NCBI GenBank assembly: GCA_905221615.1
Contig: CAJNDT010004879.1
Location: 531,520 to 595,519, forward strand
DNA from: Symbiodinium sp. CCMP2592
Taxonomy: Eukaryota; Sar; Dinophyceae; Suessiales; Symbiodiniaceae
Length of the DNA: 64,000 nt
Direction: 5' to 3'
The notes below the pieces were generated by a model. It did not search any database. It had not been told where the DNA came from and saw only the letters and a list, made by a program, of their open reading frames with translations. Position 1 is the stretch's first letter; each line of letters opens with the position of its first letter. This document shows positions 16,299 to 62,208 of this stretch, one piece after another. The position numbers and the translations under genes were made by a program.

Positions 16299-16416
16299 AT
16301 CAGCCTGTGCAGCAGGCCTCAACAATTGGCTTATAGATTGCAAACTTCCCGGTACTTCAACAGTTCCTCATCTCTGGATGTTGCAGTGTAGCTTGAAGCA
16401 CCACTTTCAAGGACTC
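16299..16416 (+). pseudogene. Degenerate Cys/Trp-repeat exon pair
   Basis: 16299-16351, after a GGAG acceptor, encodes SACAAGLNNWLIDC. This fits the first half of the repeat described at 34732-37265 (DCxAGxxNWxxGW), except that the FD before the Cys is SA and the second GW is lost. A GT follows at 16352. The stretch after TTGCAG at 16387 encodes CSLKHHFQGL, which resembles the second half (WCCxHHxxGC) with both Cys-bearing signatures altered. The splice phases of the two pieces do not match. I read this as a decayed copy rather than a working gene. Confidence 0.4.
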
Positions 16417-19400
16417 ATGCCTGCACGCCCAAACTGTGCTTCGTCGGCATCACGTCAGCCTGTCGCATCCCGAAGTGCTAAACAACTAGAAACCGCTACT
16501 GCCCCGAATCACGCAGCATGTTTGGCGGCATCCCTGTGTTCCTCCGTAGCATGGGCTATATGTCAAGGGTCAATGCCGCCACAGCTAGTGAGCAGAAGAG
16601 TACAGGAACCGGCATCATATGATGTGAAATGTCATATAACCTGTCTATCAAACGAGCAGGAAAGAATATGGCAGCAGTCAGCAGTGTTGGGGTCCTGACT
16701 GTACAAACCATATCCCAGCCAGCCTTACTTACACGACTGCCCACCCACTTGTCTAGCATTGTCTCTTTAGCTGTGCGACGGTGGACTTGGGCTATAAGCT
16801 GCTTCGCACGGCGGCTGTTGCGATGCACGGTGCAAGCCCTGGAGTCCGACTGGATTCTCAGGGCTTTGGCTTCAGAGGGTATGGTACTGTAATGTGGGCA
16901 TGAACATGTGTGTAAGGCAAGGGTATACACAGCAACGTAGCCGTGACAACTGATTCTTGTTGAGTGCGCTTTCCTTTTGCATTGATGTCTTGGGAGTATT
17001 GGGAGTATCTCATGTCATGCTTCTGTATGTGGTGTTATAGTTCGGAGACAGCTTTCACTACTCAGTAGTGAGTTGCGTACGCCGGCGGCTGCAGCTGAGG
17101 TTATCGTCCAGCATGGAGCTTAGCCAACTTTTTTCAGCTCACTGCTGCACCGGCGTAATGTCGGAAAACTGCGAGAAGGTGTTGGCGCTTCAGGTGATTC
17201 CAAGCCCCAAATTGTAATGCTTTTTTTGCAACTACTTGAATTCGGAATCTCACCCGTGTACTGCAGCTGAGCCCATTTCTCATGCTTTCCAATCACCGAG
17301 GTATCCAGTTCGCAGGACAGCTGCTGCTTGGATGGCCAGAAGTTTGGAGCCGAGAAGCTATCCCAATCTCCTGTTATTCTGTCACGTAGATGGCTTCACG
17401 CCCAAGGCTTTGTGTCGCCACTTGACTGCACTTAGCATTGGGCACACGTCGGAGCCAGCAGCAAGACACGGGAGAATCCGCACCTGCCCGAATGCCCCGT
17501 GGAGCTTCTGCTCAAGAAACGTCGCCAACCGGTCGTACACAGCGCTCATGCAGCGAAACAGGAGTTCGGATTCCGGCTCTGGCTGCAGCCGGTTTGCCGG
17601 AAACCTTCCAACGAGTGTTGGAGCGCTGAGAGCCCACATGAACTTGAGATTCCTGGAAAAAGGCTCGATTCGCGCACCTGAAGGTTTGGAAGATGCTTCT
17701 TTCCGTGACACCACACTGTCAGGCTGAAACTCAAGCGATCGGGTGCGTTGTGGAATTGTGCTCACAACATCACAGCTTGAGGATGGGCTTAACTTCTGAC
17801 GAGTGGTCCAACGTGATCGCGCCTGCCGACCTAACCACCTCGCCTGCAGAGTTCGAGTTGCGAGAGTCCAACAGGATTCAACGGGGCCGTGGACCTTCAG
17901 CAGTAGATCTCCTGCTTGAAGAAAGCTGGGTCAAACTGGCTTCAATTTTGTATTCAGATGGGCTCCGCCAGCAGCATCGCGTCAATGGTTAACCAGAACA
18001 TGCAGCAAACCAGTCAAAGTTTCGTGAGCCATTCGGAAAAACTCGATAAAAGGTCCAACCCAACCGTGTGAAACGTTAAAGCCCAGCCCCGGCAAAGCCT
18101 AAGCCTGCTGGACACCAACCGCAGTACGTGGTGAGCGTGCTAGTGCCAGGACAGAAGAGTTCTTTTTGAAGTTCCGTTTCTTTACCACACCGCCCTGGGT
18201 ATAATACCTGCAGCGGCTGCACAGGTTGCTTGCTGCATGATGAGTTTCTTGAGCATCGGTACAGCCAGTGCCTCGAACTTCACAGCGCAACTGATGATTC
18301 CATGCTGGAAGCACGCGTGGACCCTGATGGAGTGCGACACCGTTCTTCTGGTCAGATACGAGTACTTGCGGCTCCTTGCCTCGGAGAGTCCGACGTAACA
18401 CAACAGCCCGACACAAGAAGCTTCAGCTAAAATCAAACGACCCAACCGCCTCAAGCGTCCTTGATCTTGATGCAAGACGGGCCTTCAAGCCATTAGGCAG
18501 CGATGCTCCACCTCGCCCCACACCACGTGGCTGCTGGTGCTAGCTACGTAGGGCTCGACCAGAATGCGGCTACGACCTCAGACCAGAGGAAGGCATTCCA
18601 TTTGCCTAAGCAGAACGCTCCACATGTCGCGCATGCAGTAGTGGCATGTTTTGCCCTGTTATTGCGTGGACATGCATATCAAAATTCTATCGCACGGCCT
18701 TGAGGTTCACGGCATGCACCAGCACGTCAATCATTGGGTCGTCAGCCCAGAGATCGAGATAAGGACTGATGACGTCACGAGGTGGGAGTATTTGATGGAA
18801 AGGTTTGAAAGCTAACATGTGCAATTAATTACACAGATGTGTCAGATGCGTGTGTGTGTGTGTGTGTTTCCTTTCTCATGTGCCTGTTGCACACCCTTTG
18901 GTGACCGGGCCCACGATGCTTCCGAATCTTCCGGTCAACAGCCTTGCGAGCGGACCTTCACAAGCTACTGAACCGGTTGATCGCTTCTGGATGTGAGCAA
19001 GGCGCAGCGCTCTGGGCTAGATGCCCACCTCCAACGAGCAGGGCAGTGGGCGCAGACCTTGGAGCCTGAACTGGTTTCGTTTTTCAGTTTGGAATACTAC
19101 AGAACGGTTCGAACTTGCGGCGATGCGAAGGGCAACTAGGAATGCCTCCTGTCGCTGCTGCTGCTTTAACCTCCCATACATAGTCCCATAGCGTTGACAT
19201 GTGGAGAAGTCTTCAAGTAGGCAAATCCGTTCTCATGACTGCTTTGGTGTATTTGCCACTGGCATTCGCCGACCCAGTGCGGCATACCCGGCATGCGGAA
19301 ACCAAGCTACAGCCTAAAGTCTTAGCCTTTGCAATGTCTGCTCAGCTCGTGGACCAAGTTGCCCGAGACTGTTAAAGGTAGCTGGAGTCGGCCATGACAT

Positions 19401-19966
19401 GCACAGAGTTGGAGCTGATTTTGCCGGCTTCTGAGCTCTCAAGTCTGCTCCTGCAAGCTTGCTGTGAAGTTCACCGCACGAGGCAGACCATTCTGGACTT
19501 GATCAGCACATGCAGCGTGCTGGGGATTGGGCATGGACCTAAGCTCTGTGAGACAATAGACAAGCTGAGTCTCATACCCGCTCCTGCCTGGATTTGAGCA
19601 GCCGCAGGCGCGGGAAGTACATCAGCAATTGATGGGACAGCTGCCGTCTCAACCTGTTGTCTGCTGTGTTCGATATTACAGTGCTTCACATGTAACGTCT
19701 TGAATCTCGGTCTTTGCGGGCATTTCAGTTTCTGCACGTGCGGTACTGCAATGCAATACAGTGGATGCACAGCGTTTCCAACATTGCAGGATATTGCTAG
19801 CATGGTGCTTCCATAAGGGACCAGATCCTCTCGCCGTATGACTGCACGACAGCTGATATTCCGGAATGGTCGCAGCCCGAGATGAGACGAGGGCTCTCTT
19901 GAGACTAGACCTCTTGAAGACTGTGTGTTGTAGGGTATGTGAAATGAGGTCACGCGCACACAAAGA
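16417..19966. other. No recognisable gene
   Basis: Mixed-composition sequence with a (GT)n tract at 18849-18867. A - strand frame over 17382-17765 (127 residues) and a + frame over 19394-19597 (67 residues) are open, but neither has a recognisable family or splice support. Confidence 0.5.
18849..18867. repeat. (GT)n microsatellite
   Basis: About nine GT units. Confidence 0.85.
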
Positions 19967-19967
19967 G

Positions 19968-20037
19968 TGGTGCTGCGAGCACCAAGACACCGCGCCAGAG
20001 CCCCGAATCGCCCACCGAGCTTAAGGTTGCTGGGGTA
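19968..20037 (+). pseudogene. Degenerate Cys/Trp-repeat second-half exon
   Basis: After ACACAAAG the sequence encodes EWCCEHQDTA. This is close to the second half of the repeat (xWCCxHxxxGC), but the terminal Gly-Cys is replaced by Thr-Ala. The frame stops at 20035-20037. It precedes the better preserved exons at 20788 and 21087, and may be an older unit of the same gene. Confidence 0.4.
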
Positions 20038-20787
20038 GACGCTCTGAATGAAAAGTTTCAGGTGTGGTGCGAGGATTAGTCGTGAGCAGGTGGACATCAG
20101 TGAATGCAACCGGACGATGACGCGACACCCAGATATCGACGTGACGGGCTCTCGTCATCGTAACTTAATGCGTGAGCCCATGGAGAGCTCAGTAAGACTG
20201 CAGCTCGGCTGTACTGTCGGCCGTTCTCGGAAAAGCCGCTGCACAAGGCCATCTAGGCATCATTGATCATGAAATTCGCCGCTGCACATGATGAACAACG
20301 AAGCACACAGACCTCAACTCTGCAGGTGTGCGGAAGCCTCCACAACTGTCTTGCCTTCGTGTTGTTTCGGATTTGCACTAGTGACATTGGTGCGTGAGCG
20401 TTCAAGTTGCGCAGAGCAAGAACAGGGATATTGGCAGTCGAGATGTCCGAGCTACAAGCGTCAACGGCACGGCCAAGCAAGTTTGTCCGGCCAGGCGTCG
20501 ACAAGCCCGTCACCGCAGCATTACGTGCCGCCGTGAGAGTGAGCAGAATACCTGAAGATTTTCCCATATGGGTGAAATTTCGCGCAAACTTGTGAGCACC
20601 ACCACATGACTCCAGCCTGCTCACTGAGTGAACACACAGCCATGACATGCGGAGAAGCAGAGAAAACCGTGCCTATAGTGACTTGCTTGCCGAGATGTGG
20701 ATCTCCGTTCCTCTGCACAAGGGGAAGTGCGCGATAGCAGTGCAGCGGCATGTCTGACAAGCGGTTCGTGGAAGAACTGCGATGCAG

Positions 20788-21128
20788 GTATGACTGCGCA
20801 GCTGGCATCGACAACTGGCTGAAAGGCTTGCCGCGAGAAATTACCAAAGTATGTTGGTCTCTCGCGGATGCCTGCATACCGCATACCTGAACTCAAGGTT
20901 GGTCGCATGGCGATGGCCTTAGCGTTTTGCTGGCTTGACTGTACCAAACCCTTTCGCGACATCACACGCCTATCTCCCGAGCGGCAGTCGCCGCGACCGC
21001 TGACCACGGCCAGTTAGCGCACACCGATTGGCTGTTCACATGCTCGTAATTGGCTTGAATGGCCGTCTGACAGCTCAGGCAAACAGAACTGGTGCTGTCA
21101 GAACAAAGGCATCGGCTGCTTGCACGAG
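20788..21128 (+). CDS. Cys/Trp-repeat protein, two consecutive exons
   Basis: Exon 20788-20848 follows GATGCAG and encodes YDCAAGIDNWLKGLPREITK, ending at a GTATGT donor. Exon 21087-21128 follows AAACAG and encodes NWCCQNKGIGCLHE, ending at a GTTAGC donor. Together they make one complete repeat, with the intron (20849-21086, 238 bp, GT-AG, phase 0) at the same place as in the gene at 34-37 kb: between the Lys and the xWCC. The second Trp of GW is Leu here. Function is unknown. The repeat occurs in many dinoflagellate predicted proteins and its conserved Cys suggest an extracellular or luminal disulphide fold (inference). The outer exons were not found. Confidence 0.6.
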
Positions 21129-29937: not shown

Positions 29938-32241
29938 ATGAATCTTTGCAGGGGTTTGCTTGGAGTTCTGCCTCTTCAAGTGGAAGTTCTGGAAGTTGGG
30001 AATCCTCTCGTGTCCTGGGCCTCCAGCGAGGACAGCGAAGGCGAGGATGTTGGCTCTGTCGTGCTCGATCTCGGCATTTGTTTCCAGTTTCCAGGTTCCG
30101 TTCACGCCGTTAGAGCACTTTTCGCTGACGGTGATGATGCTGAGGAAGTGTTGCCAATGTTTGTTATGTTGGAGCATGCGGAGGCACAAGGGGAAGCAGT
30201 TTGGAAAGTGACGGCCACCTCAACCGCAAGTCCTGGTTCACCACGTGGGCGGCCGACACGGCTGAAACTATCTGAACCTTTGTTTGCCAGACCAGGGCAG
30301 TGCTTGGGCTGGTATACGCCAAAGGGTCCAAGGTCATCAAAAGTGAGCCGCATTGGCTTTACGGATGCGGCGTCCTTTGGCCAGCGCTGGATGCGCCCAG
30401 ATGGCAAGGACAAATTGGACCTCTCTGCCATAGCAGAAGCCCCGTACCCACCAAATACACTTCGCGAAGGTTCGCGATTGAGCTTCCACAATCTGTACCG
30501 TAGACGCTATGCCCTGATAGCGGAACAGGACCCTTCACAGAGTAGTTTTCACCATTATGCCTTAAGTCAATTCTTTCGTGGAGCTGGGAAGTCTGGTTCA
30601 CATGTTTCAGATGCGCGGAATTGCTGGTCGGGGACAACGCCTGAGATGTGCTGCGTGCCTGCGGGCACCGGCACTCCGTGGTGCTTCGATGCTCTTTATA
30701 CTTACGAGCTTTGCTGCACGCCCGCGGCTGCAGGAGCGAGTGGTTGGACCCCTACTGAAAACTCCCTGCCACCAAGCACGCTTGCGCAACTACAACCGAA
30801 TTTAGTGGAGCGGGGTGGTCTCTCTCCATCTCCCAGGCCGGGTCTCTCTGTGGATCTCTTCGTGCGCACTTACCATGCAAAGATGCAGGAGCTGATGCAT
30901 TTGTTGCATTCTGTTGCTTTCTTTTGGCCAGCTGACTGGGGAGTAGTCGTTGTTTTGGATGGCGACAGCCTCGAAGATGAGCACGCCTGCACTTTGCTTC
31001 CAACATGGGTCCGATGTATTCTGCAGCCAATGCCTGCATTCTTGGTGAACTTGCAAACATCCTTCAGTCACGTAGATCCCTTCGGCCATGTAGGAGGAGC
31101 CCAACGGCAGCGTGGACTTGTTTGGAAGGAGTGGACAGAGTGTTGGGCTGACAAGTACTCCAGGGCCCAGTTCATCGCAATTTGTGATAGCGACGTCGTT
31201 CTCACAACATTCGGCTTACCACAGCTCATGTTCCAACCAGCAGGACCCGCAAGCAGTCACGTTCGGCCTGTCATCTGGGCACATGCCGACAATGCACAGT
31301 TTCCCAACACTGTAGCTGCACTCGGACTGCCGCTGCAAGCCGAGTTTATGGACGGTTTTCCGTTGGTCATAAAGCGACGTCACTTCCAGTCCCTGCGACG
31401 TCACATTGGCTGGCTATATGGAGAGCCCGAGAAGAATTCATCCGGTCAGGACTTTGACTCGGCCTTCGTCCGGTTCTTGGCCAGAGTTCGAGTACTCTCT
31501 GAAGGTGCTGAGTGCCCTTCCTTCCATTCAATGATGGGTTCTCTGCTTTGGGCTTATCACCGGGCGCAGTATGTGTGGTCTATCCGACATGGACACTTGG
31601 GAGGTGTAGCGCTTGAGCACACCTGCCCTCGTTTGCGGGTGGCCCAGCATGTGGCATATTGGGGCAAGGAGAACTGGGTATCCTATGCAAGGTTGCCGGA
31701 GAAGCACTTAAAGGTTGGGGGGCATCCGGCGGTCTTGTCCGAAGTTGCTTATGCGGCGCGAGCAACGGCACTCATTCTTTCCGGCTTGTGTGCAGCACAG
31801 TGGATGGAGGTCAATACTTCTAAGTTCAGAAGTTTTGCGAACTCCAGACAGAACTTCACATACTTCACCTCTTCAACCGGGCATGGCCGGCTACAAGTCC
31901 CCGATGCAGGCCTGCTCGAGGTTCAGAGGGACCTGTGCTCACACGGCCTTCGCCTGGCAGAAGGGCGAGCGGAGCTTGAGGAAAGGCTCCTGGCACGAAG
32001 CTTTCCTGGTCAACGCTGGACCTCTACAGAAGCCATGCACTGCGGCAGCTTGCAACCAGAGAAGCTACTTTCAGCATACCGTGGCATGATGCGGAGAATT
32101 GTTTTCACTATTCCACAGTCAAGCTGGAGCAAAATGCACACGCATGCATTATGGCAGAAGCCTGCCATGTGCTTACGGCTTCTGGGTTCTTACGTCACCC
32201 CTGTCCTTCTTAGGAAGTTGGGGGACCGTTTCTTCAGCTGA
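29938..32241 (+). CDS. DXD glycosyltransferase-like protein with dinoflagellate CW..CC cluster
   Basis: The open frame gives 767 residues. Residues about 50-135 look like a beta-sandwich ending in PGQCLGWYTP. Residues 229-260 hold a Cys cluster (NCW, EMCC, WCF, YTYELCC) of a kind common in dinoflagellate predicted proteins. Residues about 335-500 resemble a GT-A glycosyltransferase core: VVVLDGDS (337-344), then FIAICDSDVVLTTF with Asp417-Ser-Asp419 as the candidate metal-binding DXD, then an FMDGFPLVIKRRHF stretch. The DXD is known from many nucleotide-sugar transferases; donor and acceptor cannot be told. No signal peptide or membrane span is visible. TTTGCAG ends at 29951, so this is probably a 3' exon starting at 29952 with further exons upstream; the Met at 29938 may not be used. 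The stop is TGA at 32239-32241. Confidence 0.65.
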   Translation: MNLCRGLLGVLPLQVEVLEVGNPLVSWASSEDSEGEDVGSVVLDLGICFQFPGSVHAVRALFADGDDAEEVLPMFVMLEHAEAQGEAVWKVTATSTASPGSPRGRPTRLKLSEPLFARPGQCLGWYTPKGPRSSKVSRIGFTDAASFGQRWMRPDGKDKLDLSAIAEAPYPPNTLREGSRLSFHNLYRRRYALIAEQDPSQSSFHHYALSQFFRGAGKSGSHVSDARNCWSGTTPEMCCVPAGTGTPWCFDALYTYELCCTPAAAGASGWTPTENSLPPSTLAQLQPNLVERGGLSPSPRPGLSVDLFVRTYHAKMQELMHLLHSVAFFWPADWGVVVVLDGDSLEDEHACTLLPTWVRCILQPMPAFLVNLQTSFSHVDPFGHVGGAQRQRGLVWKEWTECWADKYSRAQFIAICDSDVVLTTFGLPQLMFQPAGPASSHVRPVIWAHADNAQFPNTVAALGLPLQAEFMDGFPLVIKRRHFQSLRRHIGWLYGEPEKNSSGQDFDSAFVRFLARVRVLSEGAECPSFHSMMGSLLWAYHRAQYVWSIRHGHLGGVALEHTCPRLRVAQHVAYWGKENWVSYARLPEKHLKVGGHPAVLSEVAYAARATALILSGLCAAQWMEVNTSKFRSFANSRQNFTYFTSSTGHGRLQVPDAGLLEVQRDLCSHGLRLAEGRAELEERLLARSFPGQRWTSTEAMHCGSLQPEKLLSAYRGMMRRIVFTIPQSSWSKMHTHALWQKPAMCLRLLGSYVTPVLLRKLGDRFFS

Positions 32242-32965
32242 TCGAATGTGCGTTGTCATTGAGTTTTAGCGGCATCGTTTCTCATTAAGAGGGGTGTTGA
32301 GCAAAGGCCTAGCATCGTCTGTACATGCGCATCGCCTGGATTGAGTAGTGAGACGTCGGGGAAGTACAGAGACGTAGATGGGAGGGTCGGGCAGCCCTGG
32401 TTTTGGCTCGGCATATGTCTCCGGCAGAGCGATCCGCCGATGTGCACGCACATGTCCGAGGTCGCCCCTTTGACTGTCTGAAGGGCACCGCAGCAGCCGC
32501 AGAACAGACATCAGTGAGAATTCAAGTCAGATGCTGACTCTTCTGACTTGCTCTGCCGCTGAGGCCAGTCGCTGGCCAGCGCAGAAAACCGTCTGGTGCT
32601 GTCAGGCACTAACTTGTTTGACCTTGCTTCGACTTGTTTCGAGCACCCTCCGAGCTTCCCTCTTGAGACTGCGACGACGCCAAAGCATTCGGCCAGCACC
32701 GGTGAGGATAGCAACGCCATTAACGGATCTATTGATTTATCTGACCTTCGAGCTCTTTCCTGCAAAGCTCAGGTCTCCACGAAAACCGTGGATGTCCAAT
32801 GCAGGGAGCTTCTCAGGCACGGACGACAGCTTTTCCGGATTCGCCGACTTCACGTTCAGTAGCCATCATTTGCTATAACAATTCCTTCCATTCCATGAGG
32901 CTCGTACGTTGGCCGGGTCTCATTTGCTGGATCCGTCACATAGAGAAAGATCCACTTCCATGCAG
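32242..32965 (+). other. Intergenic sequence with one candidate Cys/Trp-repeat fragment
   Basis: At about 32,549-32,608 a + frame reads CSAAEASRWPAQKTVWCCQ, then a GC that could be a donor. This resembles a shortened repeat unit running into WCC. No acceptor or phase could be fixed, so it is only a candidate upstream exon of the next gene. Confidence 0.3.
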
Positions 32966-35900
32966 GTTCAAAAGTTTGATTGCGACAATGGCTTATCGAA
33001 TTGGGCAGTCGGATGGTCTACAGCGAAGCAGGCTGGGTTCTTCTGCAAGTGAATGGGTGAGCGAAGGAGGAGGTTACTAGCGGATCACTGCTGAAATCTG
33101 ACACGCCGCGACTGAACATGAAACAATCAGCCGGCCGGACATCTTCTTTTTGGATCTCTGTGCGGGACACTGCTACCAGTAGCAGGTTGTAACGTGCGCT
33201 TAGACTGACTCTGGTTAACGGAAGTGAACCTGCAGACACACTCGAGGGCACATGCAAGATCTGAGTTTGGTCAAGATTCGATTGCTGAAGATCTCCACTG
33301 CCAACAACCTTGCTGCTGTGTTGGCACAGCATGCAAGCATGGATACAGTACACTGGCTACTCTCAAGCCTGACCTGGGAAGCCATTCCAGCTGGAATACA
33401 ACGACGATGCAGTTCCAAGTTGCAACAAGTTTTCCCTTTACATTATGCTTGTGGCAACTGGTTTTCTTGACAAGGTGTTTCCTTTTCGCCTGTGGTGTGT
33501 TGAGCTCCATCCGGAGTCTCATTACGTGCCAAGTGGGACTGCGCAGTAGCAAGGTTAGTGTTTTCAAGAACACAAGTGAACACTGTTTTGCATATCAGTG
33601 CTGAGCGCATCCATTGTTTACTTTCATGCGGTCTTCTTGCTGAAGCTCTGGCAAGGTCCATGCGTAGTAGACTGCTGGCATAGGCCGCAGGAGGAATGCA
33701 GAGACGGGACGACAAAACACTGACTGTGAGAGATGCACTCAACTGTCATGTTCTCTCCGTTTTTTATTCGTTCGGCACTGCTGATGGGACGGAAAGACAA
33801 ACTAGTGAGGTTCAGCTGTAGGTTAACCTGTCAACTACCAGAGCGGTCGCTGCGACGGATCGGCCTGCACTACCGTTCCGGCAGTAAAACTGGTGGCACC
33901 CGCCCCTTCGCTTGATGAAGCTGTTGCCTGCGTGAAGCTGCAGTGCCATCTGCCGCGGCTGTAAGCTGACTGTTTCGTACCGTGTGCTGGCGCCTGTCGT
34001 TAAACCAGCTCATGCTTCTGAGTTTGTGTTGCAAGCAATCACTGCACATGTTGGCTCGTGGCTGTTTTGACGAATGCCCTTTCCTTCGTATAGTCAAGAT
34101 TTTTGTTGTTATTGATAGACGCTATGGAAACCGAAATACCTCCTCTCACCGATTGATGTTGAAAGACTTGGTCCTGTCTGGGTCACTGACGCACACCACT
34201 GGAGTCGGAGTGCAAGCCGCTTTGCTGTCCAAGCGGAGTGAGCTAGCTGTGTGGTATCAATTTCAGAGTCTTTTCGATCAACCACGTCCTCCATCGGCCA
34301 GATATCGACGATTCGCGCGTTTGCCCCGACGGCCACAAGTGAATACTCGAACCATTGCTATGTAGACTCTTGTTTGCAACATCTTGCAACATCGATGGTA
34401 TTCAAGAGTTCAAGGGTTCAGCGGGGGGATTGCTGAGTCCTGACCATCTTGAAGTCCAGAAACAAGACTGGAGCTGCCAAGCAATTAAGATGCCGTCGGC
34501 GCCGCCTATCGGCCTATCGTGCATAAATCCTCGCTTGACGTGCCCTGTCGCATCTTGGAGATCCCAGTCCCCAGCCGACCGTGCGACTAGAACTTCGCAT
34601 GAGTGCGAGAAACACCGTTCGATCGTTCGCGAGGTTATACGGTTATCCGAAGTACACACTATGGCCTCATGGACATCATTTTAAGCATTGTCAAGCTGCG
34701 GCTTGTCGTGATGCATGAAGTCTGCGAGCAGGAATGGTGTTGTGTACATCATGGGCGAGGTTGCACGCAGAACCTTGGCTCAACATGGCAATACGACCCC
34801 TTCATTTTCTGTCACACAGTCGCAACTCCCAACTCGGAGTAGTGAATGGACAAGGCCTGCAGTGGAGCAAAGCAGCTTCGATTGCTCCACTGACCTGTAC
34901 CACTGGCACCAACGGTGGTCAGCTGAGAAGAAGGCGACGGTTGGAGCATGTGATCACACCATGGCCATGGGCAGCATTGCCGGAATAATCGCGTCATGCT
35001 TGCAAGCCGAAAGCCAGCAGGCATGGCCACGAAGCACGTGATGCGGCTGTCAGCCGAAAAGAGAACATGATCTGCCAGGCTTGGTGCTGCGAAGCCTACA
35101 GTTTGGGGTGCCATTCGGACCAAGAGATGTACGACTGTGATGCAGGGCACCCTCGTTGCACTTAGATGCCGTCAGATGCTCGTGGTTTGAAGGGGGCTGT
35201 CAACAGCGGTTGCTTAGGTATGCGAACTGGAGAGCGGGCTGGCCTGGAAGCAAGAAGGTGAGGGAGTTCGAAATGCTATGTTTCTGCTTGCACGAGCTCT
35301 CGTACCGGTTCCGCTGCGAGGCCTGGTGCTGTGCCCACGCCTCTCGAGGTTGTCTCTACGACTGCGAGGCTTCCTTGGGCCGACACCTGGGGGGGGTCAG
35401 CCATTGCCCTTGCTTTTCTAGAATTCTGAGACCTTGCGGATGTAGGTATGTGTAGGTGTGCACGCACTCCTGCTTGCCAAGGATCTAAGCATGAACAGAC
35501 CGGGCGGCAACCCGTGAGCATAGCTCGTCGTTTTGCAATGGAACAGCGCAACCTTCGAATTCGGAGTAGAGTAAGTCCGTATTTGGCAGCATGACCAGCA
35601 TGGGGGCTAAGCTCAGAACCCGACGTTGCCTCATGGTCGACAATAAGCCCCCGATTCCTTCGACCCAGATGGTTCGGAACCCAATGCGTCGCACATGTCG
35701 CACATGAATGAGAACAAGACTTAATCTTAACTTATGTCAATGTTACCTTGCTGTACTGAACACATGACAGAAAGGGCTTCTAAAACAGCAGATGACCATG
35801 GTGCAGGCAGGCAGGCAGGCGAACGGCTCGTGTGCGTCTGCCTGCGTGCGCGAGCATGTGTCCTGCTGTGTTTGTTTGTTTGTAGTGTCTCTGGTAGATG

Positions 35901-37265
35901 ACATGTTACCACTGCGCAAATCCGTTACTCACGCCTGTATTGAGCTCAAGACCGACATGTTTCCGCTGCTGAATCCACAAGCATTCTCGCTGTGCTTTCT
36001 GTGCAAGCGGCATGCTACTTCCGTACGGGGTGGCGAGCATCTGTTCGTGTCGATCTGTCACACTTGGCATGGTTCGAACTATGGTGCCGGATGTCAAACG
36101 ATGGGGCATACAGTAGCACGTTATGCAACATTTATCAGACTGACGGCAGGCCTCGCAACAAGCCTGGTCATCCTCAAGGCTCACAGAAGTCTGTGGCATC
36201 GTGTTGGTTAGTTGCTCCTTTTGTGGCGATGCTCTTGCTGTCGTTGCTCCCGGTTGACTCCGCTCGTTTGGTGTCTGCCAGTGTCTAAAGTTCTCTCTCT
36301 TAGATGCTCCTTTCCCATCCTTTTCACAAATGCTATGCATACACTGGTTCCGGCGGAAGGCGTGCATGGTGTTGCTGGCACCAACAGCAAGGTTGCAGCC
36401 CGGCATTGGGCTAAGAATGGGAGGCCGACATGGAAACATTTGTAGTGAAGTCGGAGCAGCTGCCGTCAAGTGGTCATCCACAGCAATGAAATCCGCAGAG
36501 CCGTAGAGACCTGGAAAACGGTCCCCAGGAAAATTCCCGTCACACCACAACTCAGCGAACGACGACACATGTTTTGACCATCGAGGAAGATGGATACTTC
36601 ACTGCCGCAAGGCCTACTGCAGAGGAGGTTGGATGGTAATCAAAGCGTCATTCGAGCCATCCAAACATGCAGTTCGAAGGACGTTCGCGATGTACACTAC
36701 ACCGTCAGTGCCAAGTTCGACTGCAGCGCAGGCTTCCGAGAGCATTGCTTGTGCTTTGTAGGGGAAGGTCCACCACTCGAGAAACATTAAGCGGCTGTTC
36801 TACGGCTGCCTTCTGTCCGCGGCACAAGCCGCGGACGAGGGTGCAGCTGCTTTGGTAATTACCTGCAGCCTGTCGGCGACCAAACAAGGCATCAGTATCG
36901 GGCCTCGGCATGGACCCTCGACGAATTTCATGGCTCTCCTGTGTCGATGTTGCAGGGCTCAGGTTTCACCCTTGATTTGATTAGCCGGCTTGAGCGGGGA
37001 AGCATCCTGCTCTCAGTCTTCTTGAGTAACAGCTGCACCTAGAGATGAGAACCTGTGAGCAGAACGAGTCCTGAGCCTAATGCGCGGAGGCTACGCCAAC
37101 TGGCAGGCGGGATGGTCAATTGAGAAAAAGGCTTGGTGCTGTCAACACCAAGCAAAAGGCTGTCCGGGTCTCGGCAAGGATTTACCAGTAGTGCAACCAT
37201 GCTCCGCTGTGGATGACGATCTTGCTTGTGAAGCCATGCTCTGTCAAGGCTCCGACGGGCGGTGA
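32966..37265 (+). CDS. Multi-exon protein built of Cys/Trp repeats
   Basis: The repeat reads [YF]DCxAGxxNWxxGWSxxKK, then xWCC, about five residues, GC. Exons supported by motif and splice sites: 32966-33031 (FDCDNGLSNWAVGWSTAKQ, GC donor), 34732-34777 (EWCCVHHGRGC), 34863-34933 (FDCSTDLYHWHQRWSAEKK), 35079-35146 (AWCCEAYSLGC...YDCDAG), 35218-35257 (YANWRAGWPGSKK, GTGAGG donor), 35321 onward (AWCCAHASRGCLYDCEA), 36304 to about 36402 (RRAWCCWHQQQGC), 36709-36731 (AKFDCSAG) and 37090-37265 (YANWQAGWSIEKKAWCCQHQAKGC, stop TGA). The run 34732-35257 joins in phase over four exons with GC-AG introns of 85, 145 and 71 bp. Some links (33032-34731 and 35321-36709) are missing or out of phase. Function is unknown; a secreted or luminal disulphide-rich protein is likely. 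Confidence 0.65.
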
Positions 37266-37690
37266 CCCTGCGCCGTGTAAATCAGGTCGAAGGTGGTCGA
37301 TATCTGTGCAGCTCAGGAGGGCTTTGGCGGTAGGCCCGTGTCACCCAGGTGTCAGAATGAGGTGGCCCTGGCGTATATGATTGAGAGTGGAGAGGGATGC
37401 GGCAAGGGTGTAGCTGACGAGGCTACATAGAATCTTTCCACCCTGGGCCCCTCAACGACATGTGCCTGGCAGTCAGATTTCTTCAAAAGAAGACTGACAG
37501 CAAAGTTGAGAACTCGTAGCAGCTTTTGCGAAGACAAGGCGCTAAAGAGTGCCGAGTGGAAGGATTGACGGCAAGCGGCACTGGCTGGGCTTGCCAGACT
37601 CTTTTTACGACCCATGCGGTGACATTGTAGCTGCGAGTGTTCAGGCCAAAGGAATGCGCACTGCAGCAGCTAATGAGCTAATGAACTCCC
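37266..37690. other. Intergenic spacer before the channel gene
   Basis: About 425 bp between the stop of the Cys/Trp-repeat gene and the channel ATG. CACTGCAG ending near 37,666 could serve as a trans-splice acceptor, with a short leader then ATG at 37691. No relic spliced leader was found. Confidence 0.4.
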
Positions 37691-40600
37691 ATGGACTCCA
37701 GACCCTTTGCAAGCTTGGTGAACGAGCCCATCGAGCCTGGAGAGGCTCGGCCTAACGCCTCTGAGACTCCCAATGTGGCGTTCGAGCCTGAAGCCGGTGG
37801 GACAATGAGCACAGCTGGAGCACGCCTGGCTGATTATATGGACTTCAAGGACGAAGGCATGGAAGAGGACTTAGATGTAGATAGGACTTTGCTGGCGGAG
37901 GAGGAAGAGGACGAGAACATGCCGGCGTCAGCAGATGAGGCCCGCTTTGCCGCACTATTGGAAGAAGGACCTAGCAAAGAGCAAATGGAAGCAGAATCAG
38001 CTCAAGACCCCTTCTCTGCAACGCCGGGAGCAACATCTTTCACGTTTATCCGGACAACGCTGCAGCATCTTAGCAGGGGACTGGTCGCCAAGAAGTTGGA
38101 CGCGTCCAACAATTTCGAACTATCCTTCGAATTGGTTTTGCATCAAACCGCCAAAGAGCGCAGGGGTGTGGCACATTTCTCTGTAGGGGGATCCACCAGA
38201 AGCCAGCTGCCTCGTGTTTGCATACCTCCTGGGTCTACAAAATTGTATTTCTTCTTGCGGCAAGGTTCTTTCCGTGCAAAATTGGCAACAGCCCCCATTC
38301 CCCGCAATCGGCTTGTTCGGGTGAGTTTTCGGCTGGTGCAACATGTGATATCTGTGTCAGTCGATGGCGTGGAGCAGGCTACTGCCTCAGCCGACGGCTT
38401 GCAGGTGCCAGTCCCTGCCAAGATGTTCGCATATTTTGATGGTCCAGGCGACATCGCCGCGGAGGCGATGGTAGGAAATGCAGTCTATCGCTGGCGCCAC
38501 TTTACTTTGCGACCCAGGGTGCAGGCAACAACGATCTTTGAGCTGCCACCGGATGAAATTCAATTGATGGTAGAAGTGACGGATGAACTGAAGAAGTCCA
38601 AAAGGTGGGCAAAGTTTGATGCTTTCTTCGGCATGATTGTGTTCGCTAATGCAGTTTCTATGGGCATTCAGACGGATTGCCGGTGCGCTGATGATGTGGT
38701 GTGGCAGATTCTGGACAATGTTTTCCTCGTGGCCTTCATCATAGAGCTTGTTTTGAGGGCTGTGTTCAGTGGACTGCGGCAATTTGGTGCCATGATAGTC
38801 TCTGACCATTGGCTGCAGCTTGATATGATGGTGATTTCCCTGAGCGTTGTGGACACATGGATACTCGGCGATTTGGGCAGCGGCGGAGTGTTTGCCCTCG
38901 CACGCCTCTACCGGCTACTTAAGCTTGTCAAGATGGTTCGCTTGCTACGCACATTTCGTCAGCTTGCCATGCTCGTGGAGGGCATATTGAGCTCTTTGCA
39001 AACACTGTTCTGGGCAGTTCTATTGTTGGCGCTGAGCATCTACATGTTTTCGGTGCTTCTGGTGCGAATGGCACAGTGGAATGTGGATGCTGTGAAGGAT
39101 GCCTCGCTTCCTTTTACATCGCTTCCAACAGCCATGTGGACACTGGTGCAGCTATCGACTTTCGACAAGTGGGTGGAATTAGTGCGAGTTGCCGCCTTTC
39201 AGCTTGGGGGCCTTCATGGTGGAGCAGTTGCCATTGTTCTGTTGATATGTGTGTGCCTGACTGGGCTCGGCATCATGAACCTGGTGGTCGGCATTTTGTG
39301 TAACACCGCCTTCAAGCTGGAATCTCGTCAAGTTCGTATGGTAGGAGCAGAACGTCTTTTAAAGCAGCAGGGGGCTCTCGAGCTTTTCCGTCAGCAGCTG
39401 CTCAAACACGGGACGCACCTGCTCAAGAACCCCCGATACATAGCGAAGGAAGAATTCTTCGAAGCTCTGCAAGACAGTGGCATCAAGGAAATCATTCAAA
39501 TCTTGAATCTTACTGACAAGGACTTTGACATGCTGGTATCTGCACTTGAGGAGAACAACGACATAGAAATCGATGGCATTATTGAGGCCATTGGCATCAT
39601 CGAACTGCAGTCCTACTTTGCACAGAGTGTGGCCAATAGTGTCAAGAAACACAAAGCTGCGACAGCTTTGAGGCCAGTGGACCTGCTGTTCTTCTGTATC
39701 AGTCTGCGACAACTGGAAGCTTCTATGGAGAAGGTCGATCGCCATGGCCGAAGCATGTGTGCTTTTGCATATGATGCGCTAAGTATTCTCTATGCTCGTG
39801 CAGAAGAATCCTACACCTTGCTCAGGCTGACACATGACGTCAGATGGACCCCGCCTGCTTCAAAGATGGAGTCGACGCAGTCCTCCTTAAATGTTAGGAA
39901 GATGGAAGAGACGGCCAACCAGTTCAATCTCGATACGGAGGAGCAGAAGCTTCTCATGCCGATAGACATCTTGTTCGGCAGCGTTATCGCGGTGAACGGT
40001 GCATTTGTAGGAGTTCAAACGATGCAGGATGACGGAAACGTGCTTGTGTACTGGATTGACTTAGCCTTTACATTTGTGTTTACCTTGGAGTTCATTCTTC
40101 GTGGCGTTTTGGCAGCGAACCTAAATTATGTCCATCAGACGGAAGAGGGGGATAGTGACCTGAACTTCTTCCAGCAAGCCAGCAGGAAAGTGGCGAGATT
40201 CGCTAAGTTGAGGTCAAGAGTCAGGTGCTGGATCTTGCCACCTTGTCCACCCGGTGGGGTTCTCAGCGTGCTTTCTGCTACCTGCCGAAGCCTTAAGGAG
40301 TTTTCCGTCTCTTTCGATTTCACGATCATCGTTCTGTCGCTCCTGGATTCCCTGGTGATTGTCCAGCTCCGCAATGCTGGAGTGCTTGAGCTTGACACTT
40401 CGGCTCTCTCAGTTCTGCGAGCCTTTCGTTTGTTTCGCTTGGCAAAGCTACTGCGCATATTCAGGCTCTTTCCACAACTGCAGAAGCTCGTCTTCGCATT
40501 GATTGAGACCTGGAGACAAGTGTTCTGGGCCCTCATGTTGATTCTCCTTCTGTTGTATGCCTTCTCCATTTATGCAGTGTCGATGATCGGGAGAGATGCA

Positions 40601-41234
40601 GCTCAGGGATCTACATCGAAGTCGTACTATGGTACTTTGACCGACTCTTTCCTCACAGGATGGCAGGTCACAACTTTTGACCGTTGGGATGAGGTTTTGT
40701 ACACATCCACCGACAACCTTCTCCATTTCTGTATGCTTTTGCTGGTGGCTGTCGTGTTGGGTTTGGGGTTGATGAACATGGCCGTTGGAGTTGTATGTGA
40801 AGCTGCCATGAGCTTACAAGCCAAAGATGATGCCGATGTACAGCGAGCTGAACTGATCGCGTTCTTGTCGGCTATGAAGAATCTCCAAGAGACGTGTGTA
40901 CGAGAACTCGGGGACCAAATACTGCCGGCGAGTTTGATGGAAGATGCCATCGGCTTGAAAATGAACCCGCCATTGGGCCGTTCGATCGCTGGCCAGAGCA
41001 CCGTCAACAACCAGTTGTCTTTCGCGCAGGATCAACTTCACTCGTTCCTGATCTTTGCCTGCCGTGGGGCTTCTTTTTCAGTGATGTTGAGCATGCACTA
41101 GGACGGACGCGATGAGTACAGGGCCGCCCCAGTGAACGCTTCCAAGTTTCCATAACCCTTAACACCGTTGGCCGAGATCAGGATACATGACGTGACTGCT
41201 TGAACGTAACATACTGACGTAAAAGTAGAAAGTA

Positions 41235-50762: not shown

Positions 50763-53405
50763 GTGCAGATGCGAGAATCTGAGGAAGCGAAAACCAGCTG
50801 CGCAGCCAGAATGGCAGAGCTCCAATCAGAGCTCGCCAACAACGCCATAGCGGTCGAAGAAGCTCAGAAGCAAGCAAAGGCGGAGGCAGCGGCCAATGCA
50901 GCCAAGGTCAGTGAGCTTGAGCAGAGACTCAAAGCCTCAGCCGACAGCGGCGGTGCGGGGAGGTTGGTGGAGCTGGAAGCAGAGCTAGCGAACAAGGCCA
51001 AAGAGGTTGAAGAAGCTCAGAATAGGGCCAAGGTGGAAGCAGCGGCCAATGTCGCCAATGCAGCCAAGATCAGTGAGCTTGAGCAGAGGCTCCAAGTCGC
51101 AGATGGCAGTCAAGCAGGGAGGCTGGCGGAGCTGGAAGCAGAGCTGGCGAACAAGGCCAAAGAGGTTGAAGAAGCTCAGAGTAAGGCCAGGGTGGAAGCA
51201 GCGGCCAATGTCGCCAATGCAGCCAAGGTCAGTGAGCTTGAGCAGAGGCTCCAAGTCGCAGATGGCAGTCAAGCAGGGAGGCTGGCGGAGCTGGAAGCAG
51301 AGCTGGCGAACAAGGCCAAAGAGGTTGAAGAAGCTCAGAGTAAGGCCAGGGTGGAAGCAGCGGCCAATGTCGCCAATGCAGCCAAGGTCAGTGAGCTTGA
51401 GCAGAGGCTCCAAGTCGCAGATGGCAGTCAAGCAGGGAGGCTGGCGGAGCTGGAAGCAGAGCTGGCGAACAAGGCCAAAGAGGTTGAAGAAGCTCAGAGT
51501 AAGGCCAGGGTGGAAGCAGCGGCCAATGTCGCCAATGCAGCCAAGGTCAGTGAGCTTGAGCAGAGGCTCCAAGTCGCAGATGGCAGTCAAGCAGGGAGGC
51601 TGGCGGAGCTGGAAGCAGAGCTGGCGAACAAGGCCAAAGAGGTTGAAGAAGCTCAGAGTAAGGCCAGGGTGGAAGCAGCGGCCAATGTCGCCAATGCAGC
51701 CAAGGTCAGTGAGCTTGAGCAGAGGCTCCAAGTCGCAGATGGCAGTCAAGCAGGGAGGCTGGCGGAGCTGGAAGCAGAGCTGGCGAACAAGGCCAAAGAG
51801 GTTGAAGAAGCTCAGAGTAAGGCCAGGGTGGAAGCAGCGGCCAATGTCGCCAATGCAGCCAAGGTCAGTGAGCTTGAGCAGAGGCTCAAAGTCTCAGTCG
51901 ACAGCAGCGGTGCGGGGAGGGTGGCAGAGCTGGAAGCAGAGCTGGCGAACAAGGCCAGAGAGGTTGAAGAAGCTCAGAGTAAGGCCAGGGTGGAAGCAGC
52001 GGCCAATGTCGCCAATGCAGCCAAGGTCAGTGAGCTTGAGCAGAGGCTCAAAGTCTCAGCCGACAGCAGCGGTGCGGGGAGGTTGGCAGAGCTGGAAGCA
52101 GAGCTGGCGAACAAGGCCAAAGAGGTTGTAGAAGCTCAGCATAAGGCCAGTGTGCAAGCAGCAGCGGTTGTTGTGCTCGAGCAGAAGCTCAGTTCTTCAG
52201 CAGGTTGTGAGGCTGAACCATCCCATGACAAAGTTGGTGCGACTGACCCGCTGGAAGGTGCACCTGCATGGGTCAAAGCAATACCAGAATATGCTGTCGC
52301 AGCCTGGCACATGTGGGCGAACGTGCCCGAACTTGTGGGGTCCTGCCGTACTCTGGCAGCACAATCGGTAACAAGCTGCTGGGCGATGGCCAAGCCATAC
52401 TTGCAGGCTGCTGCTTTGTGTTGCTTTGGGGCTGCCTACCCCGGTTGCTTCGTGGTGGTCTTTGTTGCCTCTTGTCTCGGTGCCCTTGTCCTGGTGCTGG
52501 GCATGCGGTGCTTGCAAGCCATTTTCACTCGCCTTGGCCGATTCCTCGGCCGCAGCCGCACTTCCCCAGCCTTTGCTTCGAAGATGTCGAAAGACCTCGG
52601 GTCGATTGGGACCATGTCAGGCGTTCCTGGCTATGGCAAGGAGCTAAAGCAGAACAAGCTTCAGGGCAGGGGTGATGTGGATCTCTCTCGAATCGAAGGT
52701 CGTCTTGATCGCCTTGAACACGCCCTCATAGATCGACTGGAGCGCATTGCCGCAGCTGTACCGCGTGTGCAAGCTGCAGGGCCGTCAGCAGCTCCTGCAG
52801 CAGCCACGCCAGCGGCATCACCGCCTGCAGCGCCCGCAGTGCCATTACCAGTGTCAGTGCCTCCTGTAGCTGTGGTGCCAGCGCAGGTGCCGCCTGCCGG
52901 CACGGTGCCTGCGCCGGTGTCGTCATCACCAGCGCCTTGCTTCGCCCGGTCCCCATTGCCAAGCTCCAGCCCCACACCTAGTCGCCCTCAAGCAGGCCCA
53001 CCATTGCCAAACTCCAGCCCCACACCTAGTCGCCCTCAAGCAGGCCCACCATTGCCAAACTCCAGCCCCACACCTAGTCGCCCTCAAGCAGGCGCACCAG
53101 CACCGGTACCCACCAAAGTTAATGCCTCACCTACGGAGACAAATGTGAGGAAAGCTCCACCGACTCCTCCACCGTCAGTCCCACCCAGTGCTCCCACAGC
53201 GTCTGCAGAGCCGAAAGCTCAGGTCTTCGCAGTCTTCGCAGAATGCATAGGAAGGCGTCGTCAGAGCTTCGAGGCCCAGTGCCGTGCGTGGAGCCCGGGC
53301 CAGTCCCTTCGCAGAGCCGACGGAGAAGGCCGGCTTTTGTGCGCCACCTTCCGTTTTTGTCATGAACATGTCTCGGTGCAGGTTTGCCTGGAGGGTGAAG
53401 TGTGA
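50763..53405 (+). CDS. Coiled-coil membrane protein with 53-residue tandem repeats and Pro-rich tail
   Basis: The open frame gives about 880 residues from a TGACAG acceptor (50761-50762), so the true start is upstream or at the ATG at 50769. Residues 1-460 are Ala/Glu/Lys/Leu coiled coil with heptads. Within it lie eight units beginning GR(L/V)xELEAELANKA at 50958, 51117, 51276, 51435, 51594, 51753, 51915 and 52077 (last partial). A hydrophobic segment at about 560-582 (GCFVVVFVASCLGALVLVLG) is a single membrane span. A second short helix (SRIEGRLDRLEHALIDRLER) follows at about 640-660, then a Pro/Ala-rich stretch with three 16-residue repeats (LPNSSPTPSRPQAG). The layout suggests a membrane-anchored tether or scaffold; no family can be named. 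The C-terminus is Cys-containing and may continue in another exon. Confidence 0.65.
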   Translation: MQMRESEEAKTSCAARMAELQSELANNAIAVEEAQKQAKAEAAANAAKVSELEQRLKASADSGGAGRLVELEAELANKAKEVEEAQNRAKVEAAANVANAAKISELEQRLQVADGSQAGRLAELEAELANKAKEVEEAQSKARVEAAANVANAAKVSELEQRLQVADGSQAGRLAELEAELANKAKEVEEAQSKARVEAAANVANAAKVSELEQRLQVADGSQAGRLAELEAELANKAKEVEEAQSKARVEAAANVANAAKVSELEQRLQVADGSQAGRLAELEAELANKAKEVEEAQSKARVEAAANVANAAKVSELEQRLQVADGSQAGRLAELEAELANKAKEVEEAQSKARVEAAANVANAAKVSELEQRLKVSVDSSGAGRVAELEAELANKAREVEEAQSKARVEAAANVANAAKVSELEQRLKVSADSSGAGRLAELEAELANKAKEVVEAQHKASVQAAAVVVLEQKLSSSAGCEAEPSHDKVGATDPLEGAPAWVKAIPEYAVAAWHMWANVPELVGSCRTLAAQSVTSCWAMAKPYLQAAALCCFGAAYPGCFVVVFVASCLGALVLVLGMRCLQAIFTRLGRFLGRSRTSPAFASKMSKDLGSIGTMSGVPGYGKELKQNKLQGRGDVDLSRIEGRLDRLEHALIDRLERIAAAVPRVQAAGPSAAPAAATPAASPPAAPAVPLPVSVPPVAVVPAQVPPAGTVPAPVSSSPAPCFARSPLPSSSPTPSRPQAGPPLPNSSPTPSRPQAGPPLPNSSPTPSRPQAGAPAPVPTKVNASPTETNVRKAPPTPPPSVPPSAPTASAEPKAQVFAVFAECIGRRRQSFEAQCRAWSPGQSLRRADGEGRLLCATFRFCHEHVSVQVCLEGEV
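50958..52180 (+). repeat. 159/162-bp coding tandem repeat, eight units
   Basis: Units start at 50958, 51117, 51276, 51435, 51594, 51753, 51915 and 52077. The five from 51117 appear identical to each other over most of their length at DNA level, including third positions. The first, sixth-to-seventh junction and last are diverged. A 48-bp coding repeat also occurs at about 52,955-53,095 (three units). Confidence 0.9.
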
Positions 53406-60889: not shown

Positions 60890-62208
60890 AGTTCCAGCCG
60901 CAACCTCACCCTAAAGACCATAAAACCCTAAGCCTCAAAGAGCACTCAACACTCTAACACCCCAAAAGAGTTGGCAAGCCTTCAAGCAACCATCCAAAAC
61001 ACAAATTGACATTCAGCCACATTTCCAAAACAACGTGACGGCCGTGAAGACAATCCGCGAAGCCTAAGACGAAAACTTGAAAGCTCTCTCTCCTGAGTTT
61101 GGAGGTAGCGGCTGAGGGTCACATTGCAACATCTAAAAACTACGCAACTGTCACCTTCACTGTCACACATCGGCTGTGCCCCAGAGGCCACAGAGCACGG
61201 GGCGTAGCTTTTTCAAACGTAGGTTTAGGGTTGACGATTGGCTCGGGCCATGGATGCGCATGGTCCTTGCTGTCACCACATGTTTAGTACCGCCTGCACA
61301 CCTCGTTTGGCATTTGCGACGCTCATGCACATGTCTTTGGTCTAATACCGCGCCACGCGAGGGGACCACTAGAAAGCCAAAAACTGACAGTTCCTGTGAG
61401 CCTGGAGTCTTGGGGCATGTGACTGCCCTCCGCTCCGAACAAACCTAAGGTTTTGGGCATTTTAGAGCCAGGGGTTGGTTGTGCATTAATTGTGTTGTTG
61501 TTTTTGTTTGGGAAGCGGGGAGCCTTTCAAGCTTTAAGAAGGTTTAGGGTTGTCAGGGTTAAGGGGTTATTCGGGTGGCGTTGGAATTTAAGGATTGGGG
61601 TGTTTTAAGCTTTTGAACTCTGCTAGTACAGCCACAACTAGAAGTGACTGGAATTCGAAGTCGCTTTGAGCCTCTCTTCGCGCATCGAGGGGCCAGGCTG
61701 AGGCCTCCGGCGGCCTCCGAGGGGCGTTGTTTTGAAAAGGCAGAGCTTTGATCTAAGTTGAGGGGTCTTGAGCCAAGGCCTAAACCCTGAAGCAAGAATG
61801 GTCTGTTTATTTCCAAGGGTACAGCGATCTCCCCATATCCAGATCGCCTCAAGACGCTGTCGCTCTCAGACCCACATCTGGCAGGCCGCAGCCGTCTGTG
61901 TGGTTTTGGACACTTACATGAATCCAATCTAGTTAGAAACGAGGATTACAAGAGAGTCTGGGGTATAATATGGGTCCCTTTTTTTTGTTTGCTGCATATG
62001 TCTAGGGCTCTTAGGATTATCACGGTTTTTAGGGCTGGAAGAGCTCCATATACGGTTTCCGGGTCAAGGCATGAAGGTCGATGCTTCGCGGTGTAGGAAA
62101 TAGAAAAATCTAAGTCCCATACCCGGTCCAAAAGCAGCGATTCCTTCGTTTCCTCGGCCGAAGCGGCCTTGGCTCGGGCGAGGGTTTGCCAGGGTTTGCG
62201 AGGGTTTA
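60890..62208. repeat. Degenerate telomere-like (TTTAGGG) tract
   Basis: CCCTAAA/CCCTAAG variants occur near 60,908-60,930, and G-strand variants at 61223 (GGTTTAGGGTTG), 61542 (GGTTTAGGGTTG) and 62183-62215 (AGGGTTTG units, then GGGTTTAGGGTTTAA). No gene seen. TTTAGGG is the telomere repeat reported for dinoflagellates and plants. Confidence 0.5.

Follow-up and report, generated by a model that had tools for sequence, protein, structure and literature searches.

The window, a stretch of 64,000 nucleotides from Symbiodinium sp. CCMP2592 (GenBank assembly GCA_905221615.1, contig CAJNDT010004879.1, henceforth referred to as C4873:531520-595519), contains a repeat gene at 32966-37265 on the forward strand. 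To judge from its sequence, the gene is genuine, nuclear and of dinoflagellate type, and its product would carry at least four beads of a 30-residue repeat unit with the consensus [FY]DC.AGY.NW..GWS..KK.WCC.H..RGC and four cysteines in the spacing C-18-CC-6-C. The model at 32966-37265 is a partial one. The best overall explanation of the unit, given about an even chance of being correct, is a module of proteins of the cell surface or wall, built of two helices and two disulfides and perhaps able to bind polysaccharide.

Splice-aware detection of the repeat gene

An earlier note on this DNA had described here a hidden multi-exon gene of cysteine/tryptophan repeats with mostly GC donors, and had argued that consecutive junctions completing both codons and motif would hardly arise by chance. 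A scoring matrix was built from 40 units from other loci of the same genome, with window data excluded, and was run over the six frames of the window. Two parts of the unit are distinguished below: the A2 box (columns 7-19, Y.NW..GWS..KK) and the B box (columns 20-30, WCC-GC). In the window, the top five B boxes scored 30.7-37.5 bits, against 16.9 for the next, and the top four A2 boxes 25.1-33.9 bits, against 6.5 for the next. All of these are boxes of the earlier note, and all lie on the forward strand within 32975-37163; the profile search proposed in that note thus ranks the window boxes first, even with a profile built from other loci.

A Viterbi splice-aware scan, in which donors could be GT, GC or GA and acceptors had to be AG, chose exactly the previously proposed junctions for the four whole units. 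Each of the five junctions named earlier (34777/34863, 34933/35079, 35146/35218, 35257/35321 and 36731/37090) was found at those bases with a GC or GT donor and an AG acceptor. With 33031/34732 included, donors were GC at five of six junctions and GT at one, acceptors were AG at all six, and five of the six read AG|G. The resulting exons and pieces are as follows.

32966-33031 (+): exon, VQK and unit 1 front half FDCDNGLSNWAVGWSTAKQ; GC donor; front-half score 40.9 at 32975-33031
34732-34777 (+): exon, unit 1 rear half EWCCVHHGRGC and TQNL; GC donor; B-box score 37.5; unit 1 spliced as 32975-33031+34732-34764, score 68.1
34863-34933 (+): exon, linker and unit 2 front half FDCSTDLYHWHQRWSAEKK; GC donor; front-half score 36.8; unit 2 spliced as 34877-34933+35079-35111, score 60.3
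35079-35146 (+): exon, unit 2 rear half AWCCEAYSLGC, linker and unit 3 start YDCDAG; GC donor; B-box score 30.7
35218-35257 (+): exon, unit 3 middle YANWRAGWPGSKK; GT donor; A2-box score 26.2; unit 3 spliced as 35130-35146+35218-35257+35321-35353, score 69.7
35321-35374 (+): exon with provisional 3' end, unit 3 rear AWCCAHASRGC and next-unit start YDCEAS; B-box score 35.2
36364-36396 (+): fourth-unit rear half AWCCWHQQQGC, exon limits provisional; B-box score 35.0
36709-36731 (+): 23-nt exon, unit 5 start AKFDCSA and a split codon; GC donor
37090-37265 (+): exon, remainder of unit 5 YANWQAGWSIEKKAWCCQHQAKGC, tail and stop; unit 5 spliced as 36716-36731+37090-37163, score 82.5

Joining the exons from 32966-33031 to 35321-35374 (66, 46, 71, 68, 40 and 54 nt) gives a single stop-free frame that encodes three whole units and the beginning of a fourth in tandem, with the translation VQKFDCDNGLSNWAVGWSTAKQEWCCVHHGRGC...FDCSTDLYHWHQRWSAEKKAWCCEAYSLGC...YDCDAGYANWRAGWPGSKKAWCCAHASRGCLYDCEAS. 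The joined exons 36709-36731 and 37090-37265 encode one more unit followed by a stop, reading AKFDCSAGYANWQAGWSIEKKAWCCQHQAKGC...; this stop is the gene end only if no later splice occurs. Linkers in this gene are short, and units 1, 2, 3 and 5 all (4/4) have 30 residues together with C3, W10, W14, C22, C23, G29 and C30.

That the motifs arose by chance across non-coding DNA is a practically negligible explanation, and for the four full units the results below refute it. In its favour, the eye alone might select junctions, and chance does as well as the parse of the box at 36364, whose best front half scored 27.2, a value equalled by 4 of 60 controls. Against this, the unit scores of 60.3-82.5 lie far above those of the controls: the highest among 12 third-order Markov windows was 20.4, and the reverse strand reached 7.5. 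Contiguous copies of the unit also occur at other genome loci. When the exons were kept and random second-order sequence took the place of the introns, none of the four units regained its observed score in any of 200 trials each, the best trials falling 2.2 to 6.9 bits short. The junctions themselves, beyond the boxes alone, therefore exceed chance, as the earlier note had supposed.

After the four whole units, the scan returned weaker parses scoring 46.0 (20789-21119), 32.0 (via box 36364), 22.9, 20.8 and 13.6. The first four exceed the best control (20.4) partly by using real boxes, and none was counted except, doubtfully, that at 46.0, which runs through an implausible 7-nt exon. The 32.0 parse was rejected because it depends on a remote 'FDRSRG' at 34618. 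The segment at 36220-36297, inside the gene, was rejected as a shared signal peptide, being a 78-bp dispersed repeat whose frame is not kept among its copies (80% and 77% on C4357 and C5147). A genome search for a near DNA copy of 32250-37690, which skips very common words, found only the window itself and this dispersed repeat, and the spliced-leader pattern had 0 matches in the 64-kb window.

It is unlikely that the window copy is a decaying relic, in which real family units persist in a gene no longer expressed or intact. Decay would suit the fourth unit without a front half, the pieces at 16300, 19965 and 20789-21119 that appear incomplete, the stretch at 32565-32615 that by eye is like a shortened box, and a start exon not found in the window. 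The four whole 30-residue units nevertheless match the consensus, the joined exons are stop-free, and splice sites are usable at 6/6 junctions.

The repeat unit in the genome

The genome searched comprised 1,098,105,373 bases in 5383 contigs. With window unit 5 as query, 149 matches were obtained at E up to 10, at least 88 of them at E ≤0.001, own locus included; a unit from C5295 gave 146 matches at E up to 10 and at least 91 at E ≤0.001, on 19 contigs. The figures of 88 and 91 are hand counts and lower bounds (150 of 171 candidates were scored). Among the best 30 of the 149 matches to the window query, 28 lay in open frames whose lengths ran from 182 to 1292 codons, with the window (68 codons) and C4906 (55 codons) as the two exceptions. 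The family, absent from the reference family libraries that were searched, is heavily multiplied in this genome, with the unit repeated at about ninety or more places. The earlier description of the repeat as common in dinoflagellate proteomes is supported by the counts from this one genome. Near-identical clusters of repeat genes, with six equal-scoring places on C4911 and several on C4701, are a sign of recent tandem gene duplication.

All 40 distinct units from other loci that needed no splicing were exactly 30 residues long, under a loose pattern that permitted 28-36. The collection omitted loci L001 and L003-L009, which are without a full unit, and the collecting pattern required C3, both tryptophans, C23 and C30, so that invariance of those residues is no proof. 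Beyond what the pattern demanded, C22 and G29 were each present in 40/40 units (serine was also permitted at both positions), and column 15 was S or T in 39/40; column 13 was G in 20/40 and column 25 was H in 18/40. A scan by score only, with scores from the same 40 units, which reward these residues, gave 70 distinct sequence windows above 38 bits, with W14 in 70/70, K18 in 66/70, W21 in 60/70 and W10 in 58/70. All four cysteines were present in 63/70; splice parses account for four of the seven short of a cysteine, and the other three are unparsed. Spliced units had four cysteines in 26 of 27 cases and five in one.

At the DNA level, a narrower form of the pattern gave 50 matches against 13 for its control. 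Gene counting by the WCC DNA pattern alone was abandoned as too noisy (the reversed control gave 460 matches, the pattern itself 553), and a candidate second motif downstream of the units was dropped after a single match.

Introns

Nine other intron-bearing loci parse under the same splice rules as the window, some of them having also contributed profile units. These, together with the 40 unspliced 30-residue units elsewhere, bear out the earlier reading of a hidden multi-exon repeat gene. The window and the nine loci yielded 39 introns with 26 GC, 8 GT and 5 GA donors, and acceptors were AG|G in 37/39. The set was drawn from units that scored at least 50, were spliced and had no internal exon shorter than 12 nt; L051 gave none. 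The scanner admitted only GT, GC and GA donors, with GA scored three bits lower and an acceptor G one bit extra. For GC and GA donors in Symbiodiniaceae, the available part of PMC11453091 gives 25-74%, and the GC donors and AG|G acceptors of the window gene are ordinary for the group.

Intron sites fell at 23 positions in the unit. The largest heap (7/39) lies directly after K19 and ahead of residue 20, at an AAG|G that offers a natural site for insertion. Such scattered sites would be better explained by repeated intron gain than by one ancestral set. Introns that cut the module into exons down to 23 nt would hide it from open-frame searches.

Protein architecture and compartment

The open frames described here may be exons of longer genes. 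In the 638-codon frame L040 (C5295), a hydrophobic segment at residue 67 is followed by 11 scored units, which start at residue 109 and have a spacing of 32-72 residues, and the 659-codon frame L013 (C3323) has such a segment at 161 and nine units from 215; a hydrophobic segment also precedes the units in two L027 (C102) frames. Twelve units at a spacing of 106-116 residues were found in L041 (C5163, 1292 codons) and 10 in L042 (C5007, 920 codons), and the units of L025 were spaced 104/116 residues. Linkers were 73% Ser+Thr in L041 and 75% in L042. Cysteines in units and linkers, respectively, numbered 48 and 0 in L041, 36 and 0 in L013, 12 and 0 in L017, 40 and 3 in L042, 45 and 4 in L040 (the four linker cysteines belonging to a sub-threshold unit) and 24 and 12 in L026.

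The membrane segment before the units in four frames, the mucin-like linkers and the occurrence of cysteines in fours together suggest that the module is disulfide-bonded and lies outside the cytosol. It is highly probable that the units would be extracytosolic and that each would be locked by two internal disulfides. The compact disulphide look noted earlier is supported by the four-cysteine, 30-residue unit.

A metal-binding, zinc-finger-like repeat of the cytosol or nucleus, which would make use of the four cysteines and the frequent histidine at column 25 (18/40), is very improbable. The 33 of 37 frames without a membrane segment would agree with it (the 37 include overlapping loci, and many are exon pieces only), but the cysteines are adjacent in WCC, the histidine is unconserved, a hydrophobic segment lies ahead of the units in four frames, the linkers of L041 and L042 are Ser/Thr-rich, and there were 0 Pfam zinc-finger matches.

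Fold and proposed function

A single-sequence AlphaFold2 model of 41 window residues was of low confidence (pLDDT 65.4, pTM 0.39). Its helices span residues 8-11 and 14-22, corresponding to columns 10-13 and 16-24, with a break at W14-S15. Together with the common G13 (20/40) and S15, this suggests a two-helix hairpin that would bring C3 near C22-C23. The unit would then consist of two short helices with a turn at G13-W14-S15, C3 being bonded to one WCC cysteine and C30 to the other, a model-based arrangement for and against which we see roughly equal chances. The 41-residue model was set aside as a fold-search query owing to its low confidence, and an alignment of window fragments was discarded as structure-prediction input since the fragments were misplaced by MAFFT.

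Arrays of such units, membrane-anchored or spaced by mucin-like linkers, could provide multivalent grips in the amphiesma, wall or mucilage, with tryptophans that would stack on polysaccharide like those of small cellulose-binding modules. Dinoflagellate coverings include cellulosic plates, which according to the accessible part of PMC9959387 are labelled by fungal cellulose-binding domains. The Ser/Thr-strung beads with aromatic residues, taken with this plate labelling, make glycan binding the lead. By this analogy, arrays acting as multivalent polysaccharide grips of the cell covering are a tentative proposal, somewhat short of an even chance and kept at the low end because W10 is frequent and not invariant. 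A bolder form, in which the 30-residue bead is a new, lineage-expanded carbohydrate-binding fold whose tryptophans would grip cellulosic plates or mucilage, with arrays on anchors and mucin strings, is rather unlikely. Such a bead, if real, would act as a principal adhesive in the covering of the algal cell or in its contact with a host.

The beads might instead serve as a structural spacer or cross-linker, using disulfides to stiffen or link mucin-like or membrane proteins of secreted mucilage, extrusome content or wall matrix and binding no sugar; this is possible, if on the unlikely side. Linkers of 73-75% Ser/Thr in L041 and L042 and the regular unit spacing (104/116 residues in L025, 106-116 in L041) suit such a role, as do the four cysteines in 26/27 spliced units and five in one. 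Four cysteines per unit with few in most linkers, on the other hand, suggest internal closure over interchain cross-links, and W14 in 70/70 sequence windows would be costly for a mere spacer.

Several observations weigh against a two-disulfide, perhaps polysaccharide-binding, module of the cell surface. No hydrophobic segment precedes the units in 33/37 frames, the L013 frame has a second, weaker hydrophobic stretch at 617, behind its last unit, and neither a start exon nor a signal peptide of the window gene was found in the window. Linkers of L017 (C4701) and L026 (C4960) are Val/Pro/His-rich (KYVPYPVPSKP..., VSVPVPSPSHVV) and not mucin-like, which could mean another place or role; they presumably bear a faint resemblance to alveolin repeats. 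The AlphaFold2 model was built without C3, because C3 lies in another exon. W10 is substituted in 12/70 sequence windows, and the tryptophans of a 30-residue domain may be core and not ligand residues. Fusion of the repeats with the 767-aa frame just upstream was rejected, as the paralogue of that frame on C5093 has no repeats in about 7 kb downstream; the frame is thus a separate gene.

A module of the cell surface or wall remains the preferred explanation. A single compact module of fixed length and strongly conserved residues covers roughly ninety places or more in this genome, in a group in which, according to the available part of PMC11453091, half or more of the genes are unannotated. 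The module is now searchable by profile and, produced as a peptide of 30 residues, lends itself to tests of its disulfides and of glycan binding.

Other features of the window

Further family pieces were found upstream of the gene on the forward strand.

20789-20825 (+): further unit front half YDCAAGIDNWLKG, a separate or upstream part, possibly decayed; spliced score 46.0
21074-21119 (+): further unit rear half NWCCQNKGIGC; B-box score 16.9 at 21087-21119

YDCAAGIDNW at 20789 is the window's top match to columns 1-10 (30.3). More pieces, SACAAGLNNW at 16300 and EWCCEHQ at 19965, lie in the same region (16300-21119), which may represent a decaying second gene or else remote exons of the repeat gene itself. 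Closely upstream of the repeat gene, the stretch at 32565-32615 (+) reads RWPAQKTVWCCQALTC, which by eye resembles a shortened WCC box; its DNA at 32583-32604 matches 37123-37144 at 82% over 22 nt.

The 767-aa frame (29938-32241, +) is a single exon with cysteine pairs. Its best Pfam match had E 0.24, it had no NCBIfam match, and its relatives in the genome are the 74% paralogue on C5093 and a 29% relative on C4745. Three other features were recorded.

37691-41101 (+): single-exon ion channel of 1136 aa; Pfam Ion_trans E 1.5e-47, in two stretches
50763-53405 (+): 880-aa frame with about eight coiled-coil-type 53-residue repeats (159-bp, 95% matches)
62208-64000: 35-bp satellite, about 51 copies, possibly subtelomeric, reaching the last base of the window, where contig C4873 (595519 bases) also ends

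Comparison with known families and systems

Two window peptides matched 0 Pfam families up to E 1, and six long family frames gave three Pfam matches at E 0.21-0.7, below cut-offs and none carbohydrate-binding. The repeat family had no NCBIfam match, and a profile of 23 units had 0 matches among PDB sequences up to E 10. In a single-sequence PDB search, complement receptor 1 (whole-chain E 0.00057) was taken as a chance match, its score being the sum of four weak stretches spanning two units, the best of which reached 7.7 bits (E 34 alone); a sybody (E 1.3) was likewise taken as chance. Prokaryote genome contigs gave at least 80 pattern stretches, none confirmed, and a cyanobacterial DNA-pattern match, L001, was rejected as out of frame. 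In viral contigs (IMG/VR), none of the pattern stretches (37 and 34) was confirmed, and two further pattern searches had 0 matches; the phage collection gave 2 records of one phage (E 0.7). Six literal unit strings matched in no paper, with supplements outside the scope, and listed papers on thecal plates, cysteine-rich or dinoflagellate-specific domains and carbohydrate binding had nothing on this repeat in their titles or the beginnings of their abstracts.

Like the fungal family 1 cellulose-binding modules (CBM1), which are small (about 36 aa), disulfide-locked and rich in aromatic residues, with Ser/Thr-rich linkers, the unit is a compact cysteine module. It differs from CBM1 in its length of 30 aa, its apparently helical nature, its WCC pair, its conserved lysines, the up to 12 scored units per frame and its lack of a Pfam match. 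If the fold proposed above is right, the unit would also resemble plant alpha-hairpinins and other disulfide-stapled hairpins, which are two-helix, two-disulfide structures; these use CxxxC pairs, whereas WCC is found here, and the fold here comes from one low-confidence model.

Among extracellular systems, the cysteine-rich domains of cnidarian nematocyst minicollagens, as presented in the accessible part of PMC4863159, are comparable as small cysteine-rich modules of an extracellular disulfide polymer, a likeness by description. The repeat differs from them in its C-18-CC-6-C spacing with conserved tryptophans, and no collagen tract was seen. Finally, the window gene resembles the dinoflagellate 'dark' genes (PMC6249206, PMC11453091) in being unannotated and multi-exon, with GC and GA donors in that class. 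The available parts of those papers describe no such repeat, whereas the present work defines a domain together with its length and the residues conserved in it.

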